From NCBI GenBank assembly GCA_963575745.1, contig CAUYUJ010017776.1, positions 160,966-224,965 of the forward strand: a stretch of 64,000 bases of DNA. Reading direction: 5' to 3'. A program made the translations under genes and the position numbers. The notes under the pieces are model-generated. The model searched no databases. It was not told the DNA's origin and was given only the letters and a program-made list of their open reading frames with translations. Shown piece after piece: positions 26,576-40,425 of the stretch (its first letter is position 1; the number at the start of each line of letters is the position of its first letter). The DNA is from Prorocentrum cordatum (taxonomy: Eukaryota > Sar > Dinophyceae > Prorocentrales > Prorocentraceae).

Positions 26576-27535
26576 CCCCGAGGCTCGAGGGTTTCATGGC
26601 GCCTTCGTTGGCTCCCGGTGGCCTCTCGGCCCTCTGGTGCGCGTTCCAGCGGCCGCGCCTCGACGAGGGCTTTTGCTGGGAGCGCTTCGGGGCGTCCCGA
26701 GCGGCTGCCGGAGACCCGATTTTATGACCCAAAGACCATTCAGGAGTGGAAAAAACACGCAGACACAATTCATCGTCGACTCCCAGGAGAATCTGGGAAA
26801 CTATGGGAAGTGGGGGGGAAGCAAAACCCCAGAAGATATAGGAAAAGATAGGGGAATCCTGTTATTTGTGTGCATTTATTTGTGTGTCCCAGGGCCCCTT
26901 CAACCATACCCGTACCGCTGCCCTCCCAGAGCTCCCACGTATTGAGCAAATCAGGACCGAGTTTTGTTCGCCGTTTTCATTCTCTGGGGGCCTTTGGCGG
27001 GCCCCAGGGCCGTCAGCAAAAAGACTCGGGATGCAAACCCGTTCCTTGGGAAGGGGTCCAGCTCTCCGGGGGTCCACGACATGAAAGCATCACGACGTCG
27101 GAGTCATTGGTCCTCCTCCACCTCTCCTCTTCCCTCCCTCCCTCCCTCCCTCTGTGGAATGGCGCCCTCCACAGGTCTGCAAGAAGGTCTTTTCCTCTCG
27201 GGGCCCCTTTCCCCTCTGTGGGCCAACCTCGCTTTTCCTCCCTCCCTCCCCCCCTGCGCCTTGCCGTGCCCGTCCTACCGCCCCCTTCCTCCCTCGCAGG
27301 GACCTCTCCCTTCCCCTCCCTTCTTCTCCTCCTCGCTCCTTCTCTCCTTCTGTCTCGTTCTCTTGCTCATTGTCAGTGGTCTTCTCGTTCTGGTGTCCTT
27401 TCTGTTTGTCCTTGTCATGCTCCATCTCTATATGTTTTATTTCCCCTATCATTGTCCGTCTTCCTCACTTTCTCCGCTTCCTTCTCACTTTTCCTGATCG
27501 TTCTGAATATCCTTCTTGTTATTCTTAGTTTGATA
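26576..27535. other. Mixed non-coding, CT-rich second half
   Basis: No supported gene. From 27110 it is CT-rich with CCTCCCTCCCTCCC runs; overlapping frames give Ser/Leu/Pro-rich products only. Confidence 0.5.
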
Positions 27536-27612: not shown

Positions 27613-27808
27613 TGTGTTTATTAGTAGTAGTATTAATCGTATTATCCATGCTTCTATGGATTTAGTTACCTAACAGCGTAGACTGATAGGTTTCTAGTAG
27701 GATCAAAAGAGGGCAGCAGCTTACTCAGGGGGGTCTGGGCGGATGTCGGCGAGCTGCCAGGCGGACGCCGGGCGGACGAACCGGGCTCGTTTTTCGCCAA
27801 CAGTCACA

Positions 27809-28250
27809 CACTTCGTGCTCTTCGACCTCCCAGAACTCCATTCCCGGGCCACATTTTGAATAACCGGACGCAACAATCACACTTTTCGTGCTCTTCGACT
27901 TCCCAGAACACCATTCCCGGGCCACATTCTGAATGCCCGGAGCCAACTGTAGGCCACTTCGTGCTCTTCGACTTCCGAGAACGCCATTCCCGGGCCACAT
28001 TCTGAATGCCCAGAGCCAACTGTAGGCCACTTCGTGCTCTTCGATTTCCCAGAACACAATTCCCGGGCCACATTCTGAATGCCCGGAGCCAACTGTAGGC
28101 CACTTCGTGTTCTTCGACTGCCCCGAACGCCATCGCCGAATGCCACTCCTGCCACTCCTGGCGCACATTTTGGATGCCCGGAGCCAACTGCACGCCACTT
28201 TCTGCTCTTCCACCGTGCTCCCAGAATTCCCGGGACGCATTGTGGAGAAC
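27809..28250 (+). repeat. 73-bp tandem array upstream of gene copy 1
   Basis: CTTCGTGCTCTTCGA-type anchors fall at 27811, 27883, 27957, 28030, 28103 and 28198. Units contain CCATTCCCGGGCCACATTCT and GCCCGGAGCCAACTGTAGGC. The last unit has an extra 22 bases. The array ends about 200 bases before the gene's ATG. All three minus-strand frames are stop-free from 27877 to 28252. Confidence 0.9.
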
Positions 28251-28454
28251 ACGCCATTGTAGTCGTAGTAGTACTCGTACGCCTCTCCTCCTCCTTCTAC
28301 TCGCTCCTCCTTTTTCTTCTCTCATCGACGTCAGAACCCTTGCCTCCTATGACGTCCTCTGCTGGCCTGGGTGGTCTACTCAGGTCGCGGAGGGGGATAG
28401 GAGGGGGGTCGTTGCCACGGTACTCTTCTGTGGTGAAAAGGCACCAGTCTCGCG

Positions 28455-30499
28455 ATGGCATCTTCAGCGTCAGCTTCTCGTGGTGCTTCTCAGCCTGCGA
28501 ACGACAGCCGACAGGAGGCCGCGGTCGCCACTGGTCGCTGTGCTTCTCAGCCTGCGTCTTTCACGATCGCCTCCTTCAACTTCGGATTCGATCAGAATAT
28601 GATGACTGGGAAAAAGGGCTGGCACTCACTTCTCCAACTTTGCCCGCGTGTGCGCCACAATCGTCCAGGACGGTGATGCTGATCTGTTGTTTGCTTGCGA
28701 AGTCGGTGCGTCTCGGCAAGGCCTCAGCAAAGCGATTGCTGACGCGGCAGACATCCTGACGAAACCGTTTGGCGACAATGTCTGTTTCTCCGAGGTTGAC
28801 AATTACCTATGCCAGTGGGGATTCGGCGGTGCTTCTCAGCCTGTCGATGTTTCCCTGCACGGAGACAAGCATATCCATCACATCCCAATCGGGAGACATG
28901 TGGACGCGGCGATCACACGGTTCGATGTGCAAATAGAAGGCCATGGTAGAATTCATTCGGTTACTGCCAACTTGCACATCGTTTGCGGAGCGAAGCCGCC
29001 GTCGGTGCTGACCAAACAACGTGCGGTCAGGCTCCTCCGACTCTACCTGGACAGCCTTCCAGGTCCGCATGTGGACGCACCAGTTGTCCGCGTCATTGTC
29101 GGCGACAACAACCTGACGTCCACGCAGACCCGCGTTGCTCTGCAGCGCCACACCGATGACGAGCAGTTGCGGGATGTGTTTGCGCATCCAAGTGATCGCC
29201 AAGGTGACAACGTGGCGGTCTCTGGGGCCACTGCGCAGTTCAAGCCCATCGCTGTTGGCACATCGTACCAGGGCCGTGGCATGCGCAACGATTCCCACGA
29301 TGCTGTTGCAATCACCATTGCTCTCCCTGGTGCTTCTCAGCCTAAGGAGACAAAGAAGCGGAAGTTTGCCTTAGGAGATTTCGTTGTCTCCGATACTGCT
29401 TCAGACAAAGCCGAAACTGAAGTCGGCTGGGAACCCTTGCCAAGCCGTTCTCCTTCGCCAGAATGGCAACCCATGCCAAGCCGCTCGCCTTCGCCGCAGC
29501 GCAACGAGCTTGACGATGAAGTTCGTCGGCGCGCGCAGGAAGTGCATCGTGAGATGAGGGAGTACTGGGGGCAGATCTACGAGGAGAGCTACGATCCCAA
29601 ACTTCTCCATCAGCTCAGCCTTCTGCTTTTCATGAAGAGGGCAGACGCTGGTGCTCCTCAGCCTGGCGATGACTGCGACGCAGCCTATGCGTCGCAGGAA
29701 GAGACTGCTCGGGCCATTCAGGCTGTTCTGCGGATCCGCCACGACTTCCTCCGAAGCAAGAACATTGCGAACATGCGCCATGTCCTTACTGAGGAGGAGC
29801 GCGGGGAACTTGTCTAACGTGCTCGAGAAGAGTACGAAAGTTCTGCCTTCCAGGTTCAGCTGCAGAACCGAGATGCCGAGAAAGGGAAAGCGAAGGGAAA
29901 AAACGTCAGCACAGCAGGAACGCGGCGCTGATCAGCCTGCGAGCAAAGGCAAGGGAAAAGGCAAGGGCAAGGAACAAGGCATTGGCAGCCTCCGTAAGTT
30001 CATCAGAGAGCAAAAGCGCAAGCGATGGTGTCGGCATCTGCAACGCGTCTCCGGGGCGAAGCAGATCTGGGAGGTCCTCGCCTTTTCTGGCCGCTTCGAC
30101 GTTGACATGCTCAAGCGAGCTTTGCACGTCGAGCCCAGTGATGCACCCGCAGAGCTCGCCGATCGCAACCAGGTCTCTCAGGAAGAGCGCCGCCGCCTCC
30201 ACCGTGACAAGGCGGGGGCCATTGCGCGCTACAACGAAGGTGAGCGGCTCTATCGCCATCGGCAAGAGGTGCAGCGTCGCGGTGCTAGTCGGCCTGCAGA
30301 CGATGCCACTTTCACTCGCAGGCAATGGGATGTACTGCGGAAGTGGGAGAGCGGCGAGTTGCTCAAGAACCGCAATGCGGCGATTGTGGCGCTGGGACAT
30401 GGTCGTCTGCGCACGAAAGAGGGCGATTCCGTTGACATCGGCGGCAGCACCGGAGGTGGATCCCGGCGCATCATCGATTCTTGGCAGCCTGCAGATTAG
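28455..30499 (+). pseudogene. GASQPA/EEP-like protein gene, copy 1 (broken)
   Basis: Homologous end to end to copy 2 at 33920. ATG 28455 starts MASSASASRGASQPA. The EEP-like motifs are present: ASFNFGF, then the Glu in FACEVGA, NLHIVCG, IVGDNNLT and RNDSHDAV. C-terminal blocks follow (SYDPKLLHQLSLLLF, LRIRHDFLRSKNI, QIWEVLAFSGRFDV, DIGGSTGGGSRRIIDSWQP). Lesions against copy 2: one extra base in the A/G run near 28611-28618; an in-frame TAA at 29815-29817; a frame change in the A6 run 29898-29903; and a TAG at 30497-30499 where copy 2 has Trp, ten codons before its end. GASQPA or variants occur at 28482, 28537, 28828, 29329, 29650, 29924 and 30281. Function unknown; an endonuclease or phosphatase fold is inferred. 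Confidence 0.7.
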
Positions 30500-30539
30500 C
30501 GCGATTTCCTGGAAGACGAGCGCGAGAGGTGATGGATCC

Positions 30540-31500
30540 AGGCCTGCTTGCCCGCGGTGCTTCTGAGCTTGCGGCGTTGGAATGCTACTTGCAAAAGTGA
30601 TTCCCTGCGCGGCCGCGCACAGCTTCTCTGCTGAGGAAGACGAGGAAGAGGAGGAAGCGAGGGCAGAGGGCGCGCAGGAGGAAGAGGAGGAGGACGGACA
30701 AGAGGAATGCGGAGGCCGACGAGGATGAGGTGGAAGAGGAGGGGGGACTCTGTCTGCCAGTCTTTGTGGTGCTTCTAAGCCTGCAGGCTTGCCTCGCTTT
30801 CTTTTTTTGTTCGTCGCCAGACTGGCGCGATCTAGTTCCAAAAGTGCTGCGCTGCACGGCCGCCTTCAGCCTCTGTGCTGACAGGACGAGGAGGAGGAGG
30901 AAGACAAGGGAGATGACGAGCAGGAGGAGGAGGAGGAGGGGCAAGAGGAGGGCGGAGGCGAAGGAGGATGAGGTGGAAGAGGAGGGGGGACTCTGTCTGC
31001 CAGTCTGTGCGGTGCTTCTAAGCCTGCAGGTTTGCTTCGTTTTCCGCTTCTGTTCGCCGCCGGACCGGCGTGATCTAGTTCCAAAAGTGATGCGCTGCAC
31101 GACCGCGCTCAGCTTCTCTACTGAAGAGGACGAGGAAGCGGAGGAAGAGAAGGGAGAGGACGAGCAGGCGGAGAAGGAGGAAAAGGAAGAGGAGGGCGGA
31201 GGTGGAGGAAGATGAGGTGGAGGAGGAGGGGGGGCTCTGTCTCTGAGTCTCTGTGGTGCTTTTAAGCCGGCAGGGTTGCCACGCTTGTTCGCTTGTGATC
31301 GCCGCCAGACTGGCGCGATCTTCGAGAAGACGAACAGGAGAGGTGATGGATCCAACTCTCCATGCCCGCTGTGCTTGTCAGCCTGTATTATTGGAAGACT
31401 ACTTCCAAAGGTCATGATCTGCTCGGCCGCGTTGGCACGGTGCCTGCGAGTGTCTGCGATGCTTGTTAGCTTGCAGCTTTTGCCCGTTTTCTCGCTCCGT
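30540..31500 (+). repeat. Tandem repeat of the gene's 3' end, about five units
   Basis: Units of about 214-243 bp begin at 30554, 30768, 31011 and 31254 with GGTGCTTCTAAGCCTGCAGG or variants. Each contains CCAGACTGGCGCGATC, which resembles the final codons of copy 2 (DWRDF), CCAAAAGTG, CTGCACGGCCGC, and a GGA-rich stretch. The last unit (about 31262-31500) retains GGTGATGGATCC, which also follows the stop of copy 1. No gene. Confidence 0.75.
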
Positions 31501-31969
31501 ACGCTGCACTCATTTGTGCTCATCGTGCGTGTCCGAAAAAAGCGCGCCGAAAGAACGCAGCCATCAAACGCAGCATTCATTGATACATAAGCTCTACTTT
31601 AAACTATCATGGTCATCATCGCATCATCCACTTCAAACGCTTCCGTGAGCACGCAGTGAACGTAGATACCAGAGTCTCATTTGAAACTGCATTCGTTGAT
31701 ACCGAGTGCTTGTTTAAACTCACATCCGTCGATTGCAGACTTTGATGCAAAAGTCTACACTGAGAGTCCGGGTTGACTATTACTGAAATCGCCGTCTGAA
31801 TCTAAATGATGGTGTACACATATACGTTTTTACACATCGCTGTTAGGTTGCTTTGCTGTGATTATATTATTACTTGTACGATGCGCATTGCTAGTACTAT
31901 TATTTAATCGCTTCGCTCATTCCGCCGGCCCATGCAGTCTCATGTCTGCCGTTTGCCCGAGGGCCTGGT
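31501..31969. other. AT-richer tail of unit 1 and spacer
   Basis: Contains TTGATACCGAGTG-type words that recur at 36.7-37.5 kb and the unit's terminal GCTGTTAGGTTGCTTTGC. No gene. Confidence 0.5.
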
Positions 31970-32640
31970 GTCAATGCGGCGCTTTGGGGGTTCCTGGGGC
32001 CGCTTGGGGGCCTCCTGGGGCGCTCGGGGGGGCATTTGGGGGGCCTCCTGGGGCCGCTTGGGGGACTCTTGGGGGCCTCCTGAGGGCCTCGTGGGGGCCT
32101 CTTAGGGGCCTCGTGGGGCCTCGTGGGGGCTTCTTAGGGCCGAGGGCTCGAAATGTTGTTTCGTGTTCCCTCTCTGGGGCCCCCCTGGGGGCGTTCTTGG
32201 GGCCCTCTTGGACCGTCTTGGAGGCTTACTGGGCCGTCTTCGAGCCCTCTTGGGCCATCTTGGGGCCCTCTTGGGGGCCTCTTGGGCCCTCTTGGGGCGA
32301 TCTTGGGGGCCTCTTGGGCCGTCTTGGGGCGTCGGGAAGCCGGAAAGGTGGAAGCTCCAAAATCTTTCAGAAACCGAATGAAAAGCTATGAATTTTGCTT
32401 CTTGGGGCCCTTTTGGGAGTGCTCTTGGAGGCCTCTTGGGGCGTCTGGGGGCCATCTTGGGCGTCTTGGAGCGATCATGTGGCATCTCGGAACCCTTGTG
32501 TACCATCTTGGGAGCCTCTTGTGGGCATCTGGACCCGTCTTGAGGGTTTCGGGGGCGCGTCGGAGCCCTGTTGGTGCGCTCCTGGAGCGCTCTGGGGGAG
32601 TCTCCCGGGGGTCGGTCGGGGATCGCCCGGGGTACTTTTC
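31970..32640 (+). repeat. CTTGGGG-type minisatellite
   Basis: Diverged repeats of TCTTGGGGGCC / CCTCTTGGGCCG (about 12-16 bp) with one unique stretch of about 60 bp (32345-32400). The plus frames rich in Gly/Leu/Trp/Pro are repeat translations. A reverse-complement relative (CCAAGAGG type) lies at 56980-57420. Confidence 0.8.
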
Positions 32641-32769
32641 GTCCGGGGACCCCCAGGGGCCGCCCCGCGCGCGCGAACTAGAGATATTGTTAACCAGTTA
32701 CCGGAGACCTTAGCACGCCTCTGGCCCGTTGGGCCGGCGAATTCGTATTCGTAGTAGTCTTGTCAGCAA

Positions 32770-32930
32770 TTATCGTCACTACGAATGGTGGTACTTTCAT
32801 TACCATCGTCATCATTACCATCATCATTATCATCACCATCGCGATCAGTAACTTCATCATCACAATCACCGTCATCATCGTCATCCTCATCACCATCAGC
32901 TTCGTCATCATCATTCCTATTCCATTCTTA
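32770..32930 (-). repeat. ATC/ACC-rich tract
   Basis: CATCATCATTACC-type triplets: the GAT repeat on the opposite strand to most others in the window. Confidence 0.8.
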
Positions 32931-32959
32931 TTCGTTTTATTTGAAATATTATGTTTACT

Positions 32960-33232
<273 letters not shown>

Positions 33233-33374
33233 GTATTATTACCTAACAGCGAAGACTGATAGGTTTCTAGTGGGATCAAAAGAGAGCAGCAGATCACTCC
33301 ACAGGGGGGTCCGGGCAGGTGTTGGGGCGTTTCCGGGCGGCATGAGCCGGGCTCGTTTTTCACCAACAGTCACA

Positions 33375-33800
33375 CACTTCGTGCTCTTCGCCTTCCCAGA
33401 ACTCCATTCCCAGGCCACATTCTGGGGGGCCGGATGCAACTGTAGGCCACTTCGTGCTCTTCGACATCCCAGAACGCCATTCCCGGGCCACATTCTGGGG
33501 GGCCGGATGCAACTGTAGGCCACTTCGTGCTCTTCGACATCCCAGAACGCCATTCCCGGGCCACATTCTGGATGCCCGGAGCCAACTGTAGGCCACTTCG
33601 TGTTCTTCCATTTCCCAGAACTCCATTCCCGGGCCACATTTTGGATGCCCGGAGCCAACTGTAAGCCACTTCGTGCTCTTCGAGTTCCCAGAACTCCATT
33701 CCTGGGCTACATTTTGGATGCCCAGAGCCAACTCTAGTCCACTTCCTGGTCTTCGAGTTCCCAGAACTCCATTGCCGGGCAACATTTTGAATAGCCAGAC
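33375..33800 (+). repeat. 73-bp tandem array upstream of gene copy 2
   Basis: Six units with CTTCGTGCTCTTCG-type anchors at 33377, 33450, 33523, 33596, 33669 and 33742: exactly 73 bases each time. It ends about 120 bases before ATG 33920. All three minus-strand frames are open from 33370 to 33658. Confidence 0.95.
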
Positions 33801-33919
33801 GCTTCATATTCCTTCCGCCACAGCTGTGTTTGGTTCAGGACTTGCTAGTGACACTGCAGTCCTCTGCATTCAATTGGCCACTACATTCATTCACTGCAGT
33901 CCACTGAGTTTTGATTGCA

Positions 33920-35707
33920 ATGGCGTTCCCCTGGCCGTACCCCCATGTCCAACGTTCATCCGCAGCCTCTGCTCCGCGAGGCTCGTCCGAAGTGTCGCCG
34001 CCTCGCGGTGCTTCTCAGCCTGCGCCGCCTCGCGGTGCTTCTCAGCCTGCGGAGGAAGGTGGACAGACGCCTGGTTCTGGCGCTGTGCAGCCTGCGTCTT
34101 TCACGGTCGCCTCGTTCAATTTCGGGTTCGAGCAGGGCATGATGACTGGTAAGCAGGCGGCCACTCACTGCGCTAACTTCGGAAGGTTGTGCGCCAAGAT
34201 AGTGGAGACCGCTGATGCTGATATGGTCTGTGGCTGCGAGGTCGGTGCGTTCCGTGAAGGCTTTCGCCGAGCAGGGATCAACGTGACAGAGATCCTCAGT
34301 AAGCCTTTCGGTGATGGCATTCGCTTCTTGGAGGTCGACAACTACTTGACTCTCTGGGGGTTCCGCGGTGCTTCTCAGCCTGCGGAACTGACTCTGTGCG
34401 AAGACAGCAAAGTTTACAGGCCTCCTAGCGGCCGAGATATTGATGCTGTTATTTCACATTTTGAGGTGAACAAACCAGGCCATGACAAGTTCCACGTGGT
34501 GATCGCCAACATGCACATCGTGTGCGGCAAGAAACCGCCGAGCATCCAGACTCGAAAGCGGACAGTTCGCCATCTCCGCTTGCACCTGGACGGCCTGGCC
34601 AAGATTCTTGAGAATCTAAACGAGGCAGTCGTTGTGCTTGTAGTCGGCGACGACAACCTCACTTTCCAGGAGGCGCGGGAGGCTTACCAGCGCGAGCAGA
34701 ACGACGAGAAGGTATGGGAGGTCCATGCCACTCCGGCCGACCTCAAAGGCGACCACGTCGCGGTCTGCGGAGCAGTCGCCCGTTTCTGCTCCATTGCCGT
34801 TGGCGCGTCTTTTACGGATCGTGGCATGCGCAACGACGCACACGATGCGGTGGCGGTTGTGCTCACTCTCCCTGGTGCTATTCAGCCTGGGGAGAGCAAG
34901 AGGCGGAAAATTGTCGTCGAAAACGTCTCCGACGCCGACGTCAGCGTACAGGCGGACCGCGAGTCTTCTGTGCATTGGGATCGGTCGCCGAGTTCTGCTC
35001 CTCCGCTTTCACCGACTTCACCGGGTGATCCCGACTACGTCGAGGATGTCGTTCAGAATCGCGCGGACGACTTGCACAGGGAGCTGAGGCAGCTTTGGGA
35101 CGACAGGTACGACGAGGAGTACGATCCGAAAGTCCTCCATCATCTCAGTCTCTTGCTTTTCAAAAAGAGGAAGTCCACGGAGCCAGCGGACACTGATCCA
35201 GCTGGCGCTCCTCAGCCTGGCTCGGAATATGACACGGCCTTTGCGTCTCAGGAGGAGACTGGCCGAGCCATTCTCTCTGTCCTTAAGCTTCGACATGACT
35301 TTCTGCGGAGCAAGAACATCGACGACATGCGCTACGTTCTCACGGAGCCTGAGCGCCAGGAATTGGTCAGAGTAGCTCGCGACCAGTACGAGCAGTCGCG
35401 GCAGCAGCGTGCGCTTCAGGAACGGGATATCGAAAAGGGAAAAGCGAAAGGCAAGTCTGCGCCACAAGGGGGCCATGCGGTTCCGCAGGGTCCGAACAAA
35501 GGGCCAGGCGGTAAGAAAGGTTCTCACGGTGCTTCTCAGCCTGCGGGAAAAGGTGGCCAGGCCAAGGGTGCAGGTCTGGGTAGCGTCGCCAAGTTTGTGA
35601 AAGACCAGAAGCGTAAGCGGTGGCATCGCCATTTGCAACGTGTGGCCGGTACCAAACAGATCTGGGAGGTGCTGGCCTTCTCAGGGCGCTTCGACGTTGA
35701 TTGGTAA
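33920..35707 (+). CDS. GASQPA/EEP-like protein, copy 2, main frame
   Basis: ATG 33920 (MAFPWPYPHVQRSS) gives 595 residues to TAA 35705-35707. Numbered from three codons earlier (33911), an EEP-like fold (Mg-dependent endonuclease/exonuclease/phosphatase) is suggested by five spaced motifs: F-N70-F in ASFNFGF, E110 in CGCEVG, N200-M-H202 in IANMHIVCG, G246-D-D-N249 in VVGDDNLT and D309-A-H311-D in RNDAHDAV. Known EEP enzymes use the matching Asn, Glu, His, GDxN and DH residues. The C-terminal half is of unknown type: charged helices (LHRELRQLWDDRYDEEY, LKLRHDFLRSKNIDDM), a Lys/Gly-rich linker, then a basic block (KDQKRKRWHRHLQRV). GASQPA peptides are at 33-38, 42-47 and 153-158 and near 541. 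The frame breaks at 35700, so the natural protein was longer (next entry). Confidence 0.68.
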   Translation: MAFPWPYPHVQRSSAASAPRGSSEVSPPRGASQPAPPRGASQPAEEGGQTPGSGAVQPASFTVASFNFGFEQGMMTGKQAATHCANFGRLCAKIVETADADMVCGCEVGAFREGFRRAGINVTEILSKPFGDGIRFLEVDNYLTLWGFRGASQPAELTLCEDSKVYRPPSGRDIDAVISHFEVNKPGHDKFHVVIANMHIVCGKKPPSIQTRKRTVRHLRLHLDGLAKILENLNEAVVVLVVGDDNLTFQEAREAYQREQNDEKVWEVHATPADLKGDHVAVCGAVARFCSIAVGASFTDRGMRNDAHDAVAVVLTLPGAIQPGESKRRKIVVENVSDADVSVQADRESSVHWDRSPSSAPPLSPTSPGDPDYVEDVVQNRADDLHRELRQLWDDRYDEEYDPKVLHHLSLLLFKKRKSTEPADTDPAGAPQPGSEYDTAFASQEETGRAILSVLKLRHDFLRSKNIDDMRYVLTEPERQELVRVARDQYEQSRQQRALQERDIEKGKAKGKSAPQGGHAVPQGPNKGPGGKKGSHGASQPAGKGGQAKGAGLGSVAKFVKDQKRKRWHRHLQRVAGTKQIWEVLAFSGRFDVDW

Positions 35708-36105
35708 CGCAAGCGTTGCAAGCTGATCACAGTGAGGGCCGTGATGCAGCAGTTCCCGAGGAAGCTCTGCGGCAACAGCGGCGCCGGCTGCACCACCAGA
35801 AGGCCGAGGCCATCGCGCGCTACAACGAGGGGGAGCGGCTTTCCCTCCATCTGTCTGCCCAGGCTGGCCAGGCAAAGCCGAACTTCACGCGCAGGCAGCT
35901 GGACGTGTTGCAGATGTTTGAGAGCGGAGCGCTGCTTCAAATCCGCAACCAAGCGATTCTGGCGTGCGGGCACGGCCGTCTGTTCAGGGGCGATGGCGAC
36001 TACCTGGACATCGGCGGCAGCACGGGCGGTGGCTCCAGGCGCATCATCGATTCTTGGCAGCCGCCGGACTGGCGTGACTTCCTCCAAGACGATCAGGACA
36101 TCTGA
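35701..36105 (+). pseudogene. C-terminal part of the copy 2 protein, frameshifted
   Basis: Continues the copy 2 homology in a different frame: TQALQADHS, an Arg/Gln/His helix (EEALRQQRRRLHHQKAEAI), ARYNEGERLSLHL, FTRRQLDVLQMFESGALL and the Gly-rich DIGGSTGGGSRRIIDSWQPP, ending WRDFLQDDQDI and TGA. Copy 1 keeps the equivalent join in a single frame, so a one-base deletion near 35698-35701 is the likely cause. A very short intron or an assembly error cannot be excluded. Confidence 0.65.
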
Positions 36106-36126
36106 GTTTTGCAAGTCTCTCTGCCC

Positions 36127-36420
36127 GCGGTGCTTCTCAGCCTGCGGTCTGCCGCTCTCCAGCTGCGGTCTCGAGCAGTAGTGTTCGAAAGCATGCGAGT
36201 TCCTGCGGTGCTTCTCAGCCTGCAGGTTTCGCAGCCTGCGCTCTGCAGTACAAGTGCTTTTCAGCATGCGACATCCTGCGGTGCTTCTCAGCCTGCAGGG
36301 TTCGCAACGTGCGGTTTGCAATGCATTCCTTTTCAGTATGCGAGTTCCTGCGGTGTTTCTCAGGCTGCAGGGCTCCGAGGCTTTTCGCTTCGATGCCAAT
36401 GTTTTCAGACACCGTAGCTC
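36127..36420 (+). repeat. Non-coding GGTGCTTCTCAGCCTGC array
   Basis: Copies of the motif at 36127, 36205, 36278 and 36350 (spacing 78, 73 and 72), with weaker forms between (GTGCTTTTCAGCATGCG at 36254, CCTTTTCAGTATGCG near 36328). They follow the stop of gene copy 2, so here the word is not translated. Confidence 0.85.
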
Positions 36421-36647
36421 CGTTCCGTAAACGTCTTCCAAGAGCCGCTCGCAACCTTTTGCAGCTGGCTGTCTGCACGCTTCGCCGGCTTTTGCTGCGC
36501 GGACAATTTTCTCACACACGTCAGCGCCGTTTGTAGGCGCCAGAAAAACATGTAGACATTCACGAAGGGCTCAGTCTGTATATCGTCACATCATTACATG
36601 CGCAGTCGTCGAACACATCGGTGTACATTCAGCGCTTTGTCCTTCTA
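36238..36647 (+). repeat. Direct repeat, left copy (0.41 kb)
   Basis: Nearly identical to 38967-39409, from GCGCTCTGCAGTACAAGTGC to CAGCGCTTTGTCCTTCTA. It lacks about 33 bases present in the right copy (CTGTCTCAGCATGCG part). Confidence 0.92.
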
Positions 36648-36699
36648 CAGCATTCTTTCCGTTGATAACAGTGTTCTGATGGGTTCGCTTCGTTCTAAA

Positions 36700-37490
36700 A
36701 GCGTTGATAGCAGTGTCTCGTTTGCGGACAACTCATTCTATATCAACTCACTGATACCGAGTTTCCTTTCACCATAAGTGAATGCATACCAGTGTATGTT
36801 GGTTACTACAAAAGTGGGTTCCTACAACCGACTTCATGATCGCTATCATCATCGCAGATTTCACTCATCCTCATCACCACGACTGGTTCACGTTGGCCTG
36901 CGGTGCTTCTCAGCCTGCAGTTCCTTTCGTTACACTGTAGTTGAAGCCGTTCATGGCAGTGACTCGTTTAAAGACAACTTTAGTATTGGGGGAAGTGTCG
37001 ATAGCAGCGTTTCTTTTTACTTATACAAGCGTTGATAGCAGTGTCTCGTTTGTGGACAACTCATTATATATCAACTCATTCATACAGAGTTTCTTTTCGC
37101 AGCAAGTGAATGCACAGCAGTGTATCTGCATTACTGGCCCCCACTCCATTATCACTATCATCATCAACGATTTCCTACACGCGTGTGCGCGGCGGTCGCC
37201 ATGAGTGAATAGTTTGCAGAGACTTCTCGCATTGATACCCATGGGTCACTTCAGAGTGAACTCATTTGTGATCTTCTTTCATTGGAAGTTGAATCGGTTG
37301 ATGGCAGTGCCTCGTTTAAACTCCACTTTGGTATTGCTAGTAGTGTCAATGCCAGCGTTTCTTTTTAATTGTGCAAGCGTTGATAGCAGTGTCTCGTTTG
37401 TGGTTAGTTATAACAGCGTTGACAGCAGTGTCTCGTTTGCGGACACCTCATTGTACATCAACTCGCTGATACCGGGTTTCCTATCAACAC
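36700..37490 (+). repeat. Dispersed GTTGATAGCAGTGTCTCG repeats
   Basis: Units of about 70-110 bp at 36704, 37030 and 37376 share GCGTTGATAGCAGTGTCTCG, GACAACTCATT..TATCAACTCA and GAGTTTC. Between them are ATCATCATC runs and one isolated GCGGTGCTTCTCAGCCTGCAG (36900-36920). Confidence 0.75.
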
Positions 37491-37574
37491 CATCATCATC
37501 ATCCTTAACCATGTTTGCTCGAATTTCACCTGGCCGTCCAGCCGCGGCGGTGCTCCTCAGCCTGCCTTGTCACA

Positions 37575-38645
37575 ATGCCAGCACGCGGCAAGGCATCGCC
37601 CCCGCCACCCCCGGCCCCGTGCGATGGCCCGTGGGAGATTCTGCCGGATCCGCCCGCACCGACTCCTCAGCCAGGTGTCGACGTGGTCTTTGAGCAGGCT
37701 CACCTCGAAGACATCCGCCGTACACCAGGGATGGGCGGCAAGACCGCCTGCCAGTGGCAGCGCGCGCTGCGCGCCGAGTGCATTGTCAACAACTTGTCGT
37801 TCAAAGACGTAACAAACGACCCGTCCTACGACTGGAAGCAACTGCTTCGGTCTGCCGCTCCGGGTTTCGCTGAGCGCATAATCGGGCAGGGCATCGCCCA
37901 GGTTCTCTTTCGCATCATCGAGACAGAGCGCGACCCTAACTACTCCAACACGGATGGCCACGGCAGGCACTTCTTCGAGTTCCGTCGTGCAGACGGTTCA
38001 GCCATGCGCCTGCATTACCATAAGAACGGCCGACCCGATGAGCCCACCTATGTCGGTCCACCACGCGCCGTTGCTCAGCCTGCCGTGCCTGAGCCTGGCG
38101 CTGCTCAGCCTCATGTTCCTCGTGGCGGCGCTGCTCAGACTGCCGTGCCTGACGGTGGCGCTGCTCAGCCTGCCGAGACTGGCGGTGATGCCCCACTGCT
38201 CTTCACACAGGAGCACCTGCAAGAGGCAGCCTGCTCGCGCCAGATTGTGGGCCGCGACGAAGCCAGCGCCGCTCTCCAATCGCTGTTGCACTACCACCAT
38301 GGCGAGACTGCCCCAGGTGCTGTTGACATCACCGATGGCTCAGCATTTGACTGGCTTCGATGGGTGGCACATATCGAAGGTGCGCGCGACGTCATCCGCA
38401 ATGGCGTCCACAGGGTCTACGCTGTCCGCTGGAATCCGCACTGGGCTCCAGAGGCCGTCTTCTGCTACGGCAACAACACCTACAGCACACTGGTGCCCCG
38501 CAAATCGCGCTACACAGGCTCGTGGAGCCACGCGCGAATTGTGACTCACCGGAACGCCAATTGGGTGACCGAACCGTTGCTATCTGCGGCCCCTGTGGCA
38601 GCTACGCCGTGGCTGGTGTTGCGGGATCAAATAACCTGGGAGTGA
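37575..38645 (+). CDS. 356-residue protein with duplicated domain and AAQPA repeats
   Basis: The frame is open from 37515, but ATG 37575 (MPARGKASPPPPP) is the best start: upstream codons translate the GGTGCTCCTCAGCCTGC word in the wrong frame. The layout is a Pro-rich N-terminus; domain A (about residues 40-165); a linker with five repeats of the AQPAVP / GAAQP type; then domain B (about 210-340). A and B look like diverged copies: DVTNDPSYDWKQLL...GQGIAQVLFRI against DITDGSAFDWLRWV...RNGVHRVYAVRW (shared D-[VI]-T, [YF]-D-W, G-[IV]-x-x-V). The linker peptide is a relative of GASQPA in the neighbouring gene. No catalytic motif or membrane segment is seen, and the family is unknown to me. The intact frame, mixed composition and duplicated domain argue that it is a real gene. 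Confidence 0.62.
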   Translation: MPARGKASPPPPPAPCDGPWEILPDPPAPTPQPGVDVVFEQAHLEDIRRTPGMGGKTACQWQRALRAECIVNNLSFKDVTNDPSYDWKQLLRSAAPGFAERIIGQGIAQVLFRIIETERDPNYSNTDGHGRHFFEFRRADGSAMRLHYHKNGRPDEPTYVGPPRAVAQPAVPEPGAAQPHVPRGGAAQTAVPDGGAAQPAETGGDAPLLFTQEHLQEAACSRQIVGRDEASAALQSLLHYHHGETAPGAVDITDGSAFDWLRWVAHIEGARDVIRNGVHRVYAVRWNPHWAPEAVFCYGNNTYSTLVPRKSRYTGSWSHARIVTHRNANWVTEPLLSAAPVAATPWLVLRDQITWE

Positions 38646-38716
38646 TCTCTGGCAAACGAGATGTGGTGCTTCTCAGCCTGCACTCATGTGACACGCAATG
38701 CCGTGCCCTGCAATCG

Positions 38717-38965
38717 CGTGGTGTTTCTCAGCCTGCACTCGCAGGTCCTTCGGAGGTCAATTGTTATGAGTTCGGCACGGTCTCGGTCAAGTACAGCGTG
38801 CTGTGGGGATCCCGAGATGGGGCCTGGCTCAAGGTGCTCAAGACGTACTGGAGTGTCCCAGAGCCGGAGTGCCAGCTGATCCTCGGGAGTTGGAACGGCA
38901 TTTTCAGGCCGTGGCCGGACACGTTCTGGATCAGGACGGGGGGGTCCGAGCCCGAGATAGATGCT
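38717..38965 (+). pseudogene. Coding fragment after the duplicated-domain gene
   Basis: After two more motif copies (38661, 38718), the plus frame reads RGVSQPALAG and then about 70 protein-like residues (NCYEFGTVSVKYSVLWGSRD, then SVPEPECQLILGSWNGIF, PWPDTFWIRTGG) before entering the direct repeat. It is in a different frame from 37575-38645 and has no start of its own; a lost exon or a frameshifted extension is possible. Confidence 0.35.
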
Positions 38966-38966
38966 A

Positions 38967-39409
38967 GCGCTCTGCAGTACAAGTGCTTTTCAGCATGCGA
39001 CATCCTGCGGTGCTTCTCAGCCTGCAGGGTTCGCAGCGTGCGGTTTGCAATGCATTCCTTTTCAGTATGCGAGTTCCTGCGGTGTTTCTCAGGTTGCAGG
39101 GCTCCGAGGCTCTTCCCTTCGATGCCAATGTTTTCAGACACCGTAGCTCCGTTCCGTAAACATCTTCCAAGAGCCGCTCGCAACTTTTTGCAGCTGGCGG
39201 TCTGCAGACGTAGTCTGTCTCAGCATGCGAGCTCCCGCACGCTTCGCCGGCTTTTGCTGCGCGGACAATTTTCTCACACACGTCAGCGCCGTTTGTAGGC
39301 GTCAGAAAAACATGTAGACATTCACGAAGGGCTCAGTCTGTATATCGTCACATCATTACATACGCAGTCGTCGAACACATCGGTGTACATTCAGCGCTTT
39401 GTCCTTCTA
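38967..39409 (+). repeat. Direct repeat, right copy (0.44 kb)
   Basis: Partner of 36238-36647. Together they bracket the 37575-38645 gene. Motif copies lie at 39007 and 39079. Confidence 0.92.
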
Positions 39410-39419
39410 GCTGGGTCGC

Positions 39420-39775
39420 TTCGTGCTGAGGCTGAGGCTGATGCAGGCTGAGGCTGAGGCAGGCTGAGGCTGAGGCCGAGGCCGACGGCAGACTGAGGCT
39501 GAGGCTGAAGCAGGCTGAGGCTGAGGCAGGCAGGCTGAGGCTGAGGCTGAGGCAGGCTGATGCTGAGGCAGGCTGAGGCTGAGGCTGAGGCTGATGCAGG
39601 CTGAGGCTGAGGCAGGCTGAGGCTGAGGCCGAGGCCGAAGGCAGACTGATGCTGAGGCTAAAGCAGGCTGAGGCTGAGGCTGAGGCAGGCTGAGGCTGAG
39701 GCAGGCGGAGGCTGAGGCTGAGGCAGGCTGAGGCTGAGGCTGTGACTGCGACTGCCGTTGCCACTGCGACTGTCC
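39420..39775 (+). repeat. GCTGAG hexamer array
   Basis: Tandem GCTGAG with AGGC insertions, grouped into longer blocks (GAGGCCGAGGCCGA at 39471 and 39625). The open minus-strand Ser/Ala/Leu/Gln frames are repeat translations. Confidence 0.93.
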
Positions 39776-40425
39776 TCGCGAATGCGACAACGACTGCGAG
39801 AACAGCAGAATTCTACAACTGGATTCTCATCCGAATCTTAAGGGGAATGCTTCCAGATATGCTCCTACACATGGCTGTTAGGTTGCTTTGCCGGGATAAT
39901 TAGTTTTCTAGTTTTATTTTTCAGTAATAAAGAGATCCAAGTTGCCATTTGCAGTCGCGATTTATTTCTCCTCACCTATCGTCCTTGGTCGTGACGGCTT
40001 CCAGCAGTTACCCCGGTGCATGACGGTTTCTGTTCAAAGCGTGGGTCTCGTTTGAAGCTTTCTCGGGGGCTCCGACGATACTATCTATGGCGTAGCCGTT
40101 TCGAATGCTTGCTGGGACCTGCGAGTTTGGGGGCTTGGGATGGGAGGATGAAGTGCATCATCGGTGATGCAGCCTGAGTTTGCTGTGGTCCTGCTTCGCC
40201 TCCTCCTCCACCCTCCCTCTCTTCGCCCTCTCTCCGTTTCCCCCCCCGTTTCCTTCTATCACCTCTGCCCTCCTTCCCTCCCTCCCTCGTTCCCTTTTTC
40301 CCTCGTTTCCTCGTTCCCTGTTTCCCTCATTTCCTCGTTTCCTCGTTCCTTCCCTGTTCCCTCATTCCCTCCTTGTTCCTTTCCCTCTCCTCCCCCCCAC
40401 CCACCCTGCGCGCGCGGGGCAGGAT
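39776..40425. other. Unit 2 end and CT-rich spacer
   Basis: Includes GCTGTTAGGT (39874), AT-rich sequence with AATAAAG (39927), then a pyrimidine tract (40195-40400) of CTCCCTCC and TTTCCCTCG repeats. No gene. Confidence 0.5.

Follow-up and report, generated by a model that had tools for sequence, protein, structure and literature searches.

Two repeated units in Prorocentrum cordatum DNA as copies of an abundant, probably Helentron-like element family with a predicted EEP nuclease of its own

The described systems closest to the elements analysed here are the Helentrons and HINEs, in which the inverted repeats measure 12–15 bp and, in mite HINEs, the right repeat lies 38–60 bp from the element end (PMC4067079). 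The DNA under study is a stretch of 64,000 nucleotides of the dinoflagellate P. cordatum (assembly GCA_963575745.1, contig CAUYUJ010017776.1, positions 160,966 to 224,965 of the forward strand; hereafter the window), in which two units, unit 1 and unit 2, carry mutually inverted 11-mers and a gene for an EEP-like protein. Their ends, internal arrays and recurrence in the genome show that both units belong to a single, highly abundant family of transposable elements that numbers in the order of ten thousand copies, and the best reading, which we consider probable, is a Helentron-like family that uses a Rep protein in trans and encodes its own EEP nuclease. In dinoflagellates, whose genomes are very large, mobile DNA has been little described; the 4.1-Gb assembly used here makes visible a family that has near-identical coding members with intact genes. 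Among the papers listed in a literature search on dinoflagellate Helitrons, none was about such elements, judged by title, and the word Helitron is absent from the main text of the P. cordatum genome paper (PMC10666404).

Within the window, the + strand matches to ACCTAACAGCG (at most one mismatch) were those starting at 27668 and 33241 and no others; the reverse complement was confined to 31838–31848 (exact) and 39873–39883 (one mismatch), so that the inverted ends described in a first-pass annotation of the window, exact in unit 1 and 10 bp in unit 2, were present and unique. GCTGTTAGGTTGCTTTGC (at most three mismatches) occurred solely at 31839 and 39874. The left ends of the two units were alignable over the first ~50 bases and onward into a 73-bp array, the right ends over TACACAT-GCTGTTAGGTTGCTTTGC and the large gene over ~2.1 kb (64% identical at the DNA level), and the tails and flanks were not alike; these alignments agree with the homologies, and with the differing tails, that had been reported.

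Genome-wide searches covered the assembly of 4.13 Gb in 21,875 contigs, from which regions labelled L007–L056 were fetched (C numbers are contig labels). ACCTAACAGCG gave 10,423 + 10,340 = 20,763 exact matches and its reversed control 514 + 511 = 1,025 (~20-fold excess); with the control subtracted and the remainder halved, the family would number ~9,900 copy-equivalents, counting exact matches only. Among the first 100 listed places, neighbouring matches no more than 8 kb apart were in +- order in 28 of 34 cases (-+ in 3, -- in 2, ++ in 1), with a +- spacing of 816–2,641 bp. All 21 units fetched from +- pairs had both ends and the 73-bp array, both ends being partly a matter of choice, since the 20 regions concerned (28 such pairs were listed) were picked as pairs among these same places; in most of them the 73-bp array was followed by a low-complexity array with a period of 3, 6, 16 or 22 bp. 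Twenty regions fetched around lone hits contained both ends (12), one end and the array (6) or, at the thresholds used, neither (L033 and L045), and one of the 20, L040, carried the EEP gene. The copies were of two types, short ones of 0.8–2.6 kb with arrays only and coding ones, and the common protein that the first pass proposed to look for was found as the EEP open reading frame (ORF) of the coding copies and not in the short ones.

This search bore on the suggestion that the units are merely a local, non-mobile tandem gene duplication, for which it could be said that they are adjacent and in the same orientation and that dinoflagellates have tandem gene families. Copies with common ends and unrelated flanks were found on very many contigs, not as one local cluster, and uninterrupted empty sites were found as well (see below); local duplication is thereby refuted and hardly credible as an explanation of the locus, though head-to-tail tandems of the element do exist.

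Alignment of 23 units placed the element ends at (T)nACCTAACAGCG... on the left and ...CGCTGTTAGGTTGCTTTGCCGGGATAATT(T)n on the right. The left 11-mer directly follows Ts, and on the right the element continues for another 18 bp after the 11-mer, giving units of 27668–31866 and 33241–39901 plus the Ts at their flanks; the earlier caution about the exact ends was well placed, and the 11-mers count as subterminal and not as terminal inverted repeats. At least two Ts preceded 38 of 39 left ends, and at least one T followed GGGATAA at 36 of 40 right ends. A 5' hairpin was predicted in 22 of the 23 units (exception, L012). In L031, one left end was followed by two right ends downstream, an arrangement suggestive of a bypassed 3' end. 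In the empty-site test, 36 flank pairs were tried and 13 matched across the junction. Four were clear (L007, L008, L016 and L017), with an uninterrupted paralogue and precise insertion into a T-run, in some of them with a few extra Ts; a target-site duplication of fixed length, sought together with the empty sites, was found at none of these four. L025 and L030 represented older empty sites with a junction that could not be resolved, and the other matches came from tandem neighbours matching themselves (L026 and L028, two each) or, in L013, L023 and L035, were not read at base level. L007 and L017 each hold an inverted duplication, of which one arm carries the element and the other, nearby at the same locus, is the empty site. 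A repeat that is uninterrupted in the window (26775–26902) is also seen elsewhere, at elements L025 and L030 and in copies in L028 and L044.

Genome-wide, 482 head-to-tail junctions were counted (control, 0), the elements being separated by a few Ts, variable in number, and such junctions flanked three of eight young coding copies. On contig C98 (24536–39468), groups of the 17-mer described below recur at intervals of ~4 kb and a head-to-tail junction lies at 36290; this stretch is probably a tandem array of coding elements. An ordinary cut-and-paste DNA transposon with 11-bp terminal inverted repeats would fit the mutual inversion of the 11-mers, and is nevertheless disfavoured to the point of being very improbable: the right repeat is 18 bp internal, the four clear empty sites lack a duplication and tandem junctions are numerous. 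A Pfam scan of five window ORFs found no transposase and no EEP family.

The claim that the element carries an EEP-like gene was upheld by the predicted fold and by the genomic matches. The protein had 30 database relatives at E ≤0.001, and an alignment-based structural model predicted an EEP core (mean pLDDT 71 overall, mostly 80–95 in the core). A fold search against PDB returned 52 matches at E ≤0.001, the best at 1.5e-8 (3mpr, a Bacteroides EEP protein), with TDP2 and DNase I among the top ones. The metal and active-site columns among the 30 relatives read E in 17/20, H in 21/24, D in 26/26, N in 23/26, H in 27/29 and D in 27/29 (letter present), residues which we take to be the EEP motifs. 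On the model, the 728-amino-acid ORF is an EEP-fold (TDP2/DNase I/APE-like) domain followed by a conserved, mostly helical C-terminal part, a predicted nuclease. All 64 genomic matches that were scored, on 62 contigs, spanned residues 2–695 at 98–99% identity and were stop-free; these were the best 64 of 14,936 first-look candidates, and their intactness is uninformative on older copies. Eight of ten EEP loci fetched had both ends, measured 4,037–4,054 bp, contained the 728-amino-acid ORF and were 98.7–99.9% identical (median 99.7%; L049, without the left end and start string, and L052, without the right end, at the thresholds used and within 5,082 bases, did not enter these identities). The near-identity of the eight 4.04-kb elements indicates that the coding form was amplified recently.

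L040, on another contig, shares 2,587 bp with unit 2 at 97.5% identity and the last 1,170 bp at 98.9%, with a different middle cargo. Between unit 1 and L040, nonsynonymous divergence (dN) was 0.34 and synonymous divergence (dS) 1.2 (dN/dS ~0.28, 381 codons); as dN is below dS, past selection on the protein is implied. A 36-codon comparison for the second frame of unit 2 was not meaningful and was left out. These sequence comparisons make unit 1 an old coding copy, now broken, and unit 2 a younger one.

The coding copies also contain a dispersed short repeat. GTGCTTCTCAGCCTG, the DNA behind the amino acid motif GASQPA, was matched 27 times in the window (at most two mismatches), all of these matches falling on the + strand within unit 1 or unit 2; shuffling expects 0.19 matches. 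The 17-mer GGTGCTTCTCAGCCTGC occurred 8,020 times genome-wide against 0 for the control and, in the coding copies read, always lay on the same strand as the EEP gene, inside as well as outside coding sequence. Four exact GASQPA sites in the ORF of L040 use the identical five codons (p ~0.003 for each under the codon usage of the remaining ORF), and copying or constraint therefore acts on the DNA. With about seven 17-mers per young element, the genomic count would roughly correspond to near a thousand EEP-bearing copies. Between the units, at 31975–32660 of the window, lies a degenerate 10–11-bp repeat of the GGGGCCTCTTG type, and by eye a similar-looking stretch is present in the middle of L040.

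A motif scan for the HUH motif of Rep proteins found none in any frame of more than 80 amino acids in the window and L007–L046; L047–L056 gave one HUH-like match, on the minus strand of L053 and outside any frame of 250 amino acids. Helitron_like_N was matched at least 151 times in the genome, many matches lying in long open frames and falling into several near-identical groups (among them groups with frames of 1797 and 1099 amino acids), and 0 times in 14 control genomes. In an alternative reading, the element's own 728-amino-acid EEP protein would be the key enzyme of transposition, making the 4.04-kb element complete and autonomous, with no Rep, helicase, reverse transcriptase or DDE transposase and with the remaining work left to host replication. 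The youngest coding copies, with their one long ORF, intact in every scored match, the past constraint on the protein seen in the old divergence of unit 1 and L040, and the retention of most active-site residues in relatives at 40–60% identity would all suit such an element, and if the protein did act alone it would be a new kind of transposition enzyme. We know of no transposon that is moved by an EEP protein alone; the Helitron Rep proteins of this genome could act in trans, and the end anatomy resembles that of Helentrons, which use Rep/helicase. Autonomy through the EEP protein is unlikely. It is equally doubtful, though conceivable, that an element with an EEP-fold protein as its sole enzyme would move by a rolling-circle-like route, using this nuclease and host replication in place of HUH Rep or helicase, with the same-strand 17-mers (the GASQPA codons) as candidate recognition sites for its protein.

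Under the Helentron-like reading, copies would spread via single-stranded or circular intermediates of the rolling-circle type, with the Rep/helicase coming in trans from elements of the Helitron class in this genome. The EEP protein of the element might nick the T-rich target or process Rep-linked or flap ends, and we propose that its ORF was kept for this role. TDP2 removes 5'-tyrosyl adducts, and likeness to it would, speculatively, suit the release of Rep-linked ends. If Rep works in trans, the endonuclease function that is fused to Rep in Helentrons is split off here, and its part in rolling-circle transposition becomes directly testable.

Several observations weigh against this reading. 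No recognisable Rep or helicase was present in the elements read, and in the ten young coding loci the EEP frame was the sole open frame of at least 250 amino acids. Among the matches listed, the only Rep match on C1–C92 was on C60, which has no listed exact 11-mer and so argues weakly against that Rep group; a Rep-bearing partner of these ends is putative. The energy of the 5' hairpin was unexceptional (reached by 33 of 500 shuffles), and no convincing 3' stem-loop of the kind known from Helentrons was found, the last 45 nt folding weakly, at -0.1 to -3.4 kcal/mol. The inverted repeats measure 11 bp, and the right one lies 18 bp from the end as against 38–60 bp in mite HINEs (PMC4067079). Recent copies had dN ~ dS (0.018/0.018; 0.0006/0.0009) and gave no evidence for selection.

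Unit 2 contains a second gene, whose product had 31 database relatives, including the window's own, with GAAQPA-like linkers and no recognised fold. Its position in a cassette between 97–99% identical direct repeats suggests a gain by recombination between elements sharing the 3' part. On reading the alignments, the EEP-family protein P0021 was seen to have an N-terminal stretch in common with three members of the second-ORF family, P0058, P0060 and P0061. Helitrons capture genes, and the EEP gene might likewise be a passenger, captured from the host by non-autonomous elements of an unrelated Rep-bearing Helitron and without a role in movement. The further cassette of unit 2, the different middle cargo of L040 and the near-equality of dN and dS among recent copies are in keeping with capture. 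The lower dN/dS between unit 1 and L040 speaks against it, as does the occurrence of the EEP gene in subfamilies both old and young whose ends and arrays are the same; moreover, no single-copy host relative was identified, none having been specifically sought. We regard a mere passenger as quite improbable. The features of the two units are collected in Table 1.

Table 1. Positions of the two units and their features in the window
Feature	Position	Strand	Remark
Unit 1	27668..31866	+	read as an old, broken coding copy; right end degenerate past TGCTTTGC
Unit 1, left inverted 11-mer	27668..27678	+	5' end, after Ts; first bases pair in a small hairpin ACCTA-A-CAG..CTG-A-TAGGT
Unit 1, 73-bp array (core copies)	27778..28150	+	
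Dispersed same-strand copies of GTGCTTCTCAGCCTG (27)	28483..39024	+	in-frame GASQPA within genes, some outside; all in units 1 and 2
Unit 1, broken EEP-like gene	28648..30499	+	open pieces 28648–29817 and 29651–30499; stops and frame changes
Unit 1, right inverted 11-mer	31838..31848	-	subterminal
Unit 2	33241..39901	+	read as a younger coding copy; has an additional cassette with a second gene
Unit 2, left inverted 11-mer	33241..33251	+	
Unit 2, 73-bp array (core copies)	33344..33789	+	
Unit 2, EEP-like gene	33920..36105	+	two frames, 33920–35707 and 35701–36105; one frame break relative to intact copies
Direct repeat, first copy	36238..36647	+	before the second-gene cassette; families D11 (97%) and D17 (99%)
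Unit 2, second ORF	37515..38645	+	31-member database family
Direct repeat, second copy	38967..39409	+	families D11 and D17
Unit 2, 16/22-bp array near right end	39425..39769	+	also in many short copies
Unit 2, right inverted repeat	39873..39883	-	10/11, subterminal; element end ...TGCTTTGCCGGGATAATT at 39901

The EEP protein could make the family a new class, depending on the presence of a Rep partner. That the units are mobile elements, one of the two readings first proposed, is supported by genome-wide copies with common ends; that they are of a new class stands only in part, because the end anatomy, the T-run target without target duplication and the satellite-like arrays resemble Helentrons and HINEs (PMC4067079, PMC7492417). 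The introner elements of P. cordatum introns are likewise abundant, with inverted repeats at both ends; they were searched for as 8–20-nt inverted and 3–5-nt direct repeats near intron ends, whereas no direct repeats border the elements here at the clear empty sites (PMC10666404). TDP2, DNase I and other EEP-fold proteins share the predicted EEP core at 10–16% sequence identity, and the element's protein differs from them in its extra C-terminal part and in being encoded by a mobile element. Helitron2 is described as having asymmetric terminal inverted repeats and palindromic ends and resembles the family in this respect; it has Rep/helicase without endonuclease, and here the reverse applies (PMC4067079). 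Like Helentrons, HINEs and DINE-1, the elements have inverted repeats that are asymmetric and subterminal, with the left repeat following Ts close to the 5' end, and, like Helentrons and HINEs, a T-rich or TT target, variable flanking Ts, no target modification and internal tandem repeats; as in DINE-1, a short inverted repeat is nested with the 5' subterminal repeat (PMC4067079). Association with AP-endonuclease-type (EEP) activity, here predicted, is a further likeness to Helentrons, in which the endonuclease is fused to Rep/helicase; in the elements read here the EEP protein stands alone, without a recognised Rep/helicase, and the host is a dinoflagellate (PMC4067079). Cg_HINE of the Pacific oyster is also a high-copy family with satellite-like central arrays and is described as non-autonomous, whereas in P. 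cordatum a form with an intact EEP ORF shares its ends and arrays with the short copies (PMC7492417).

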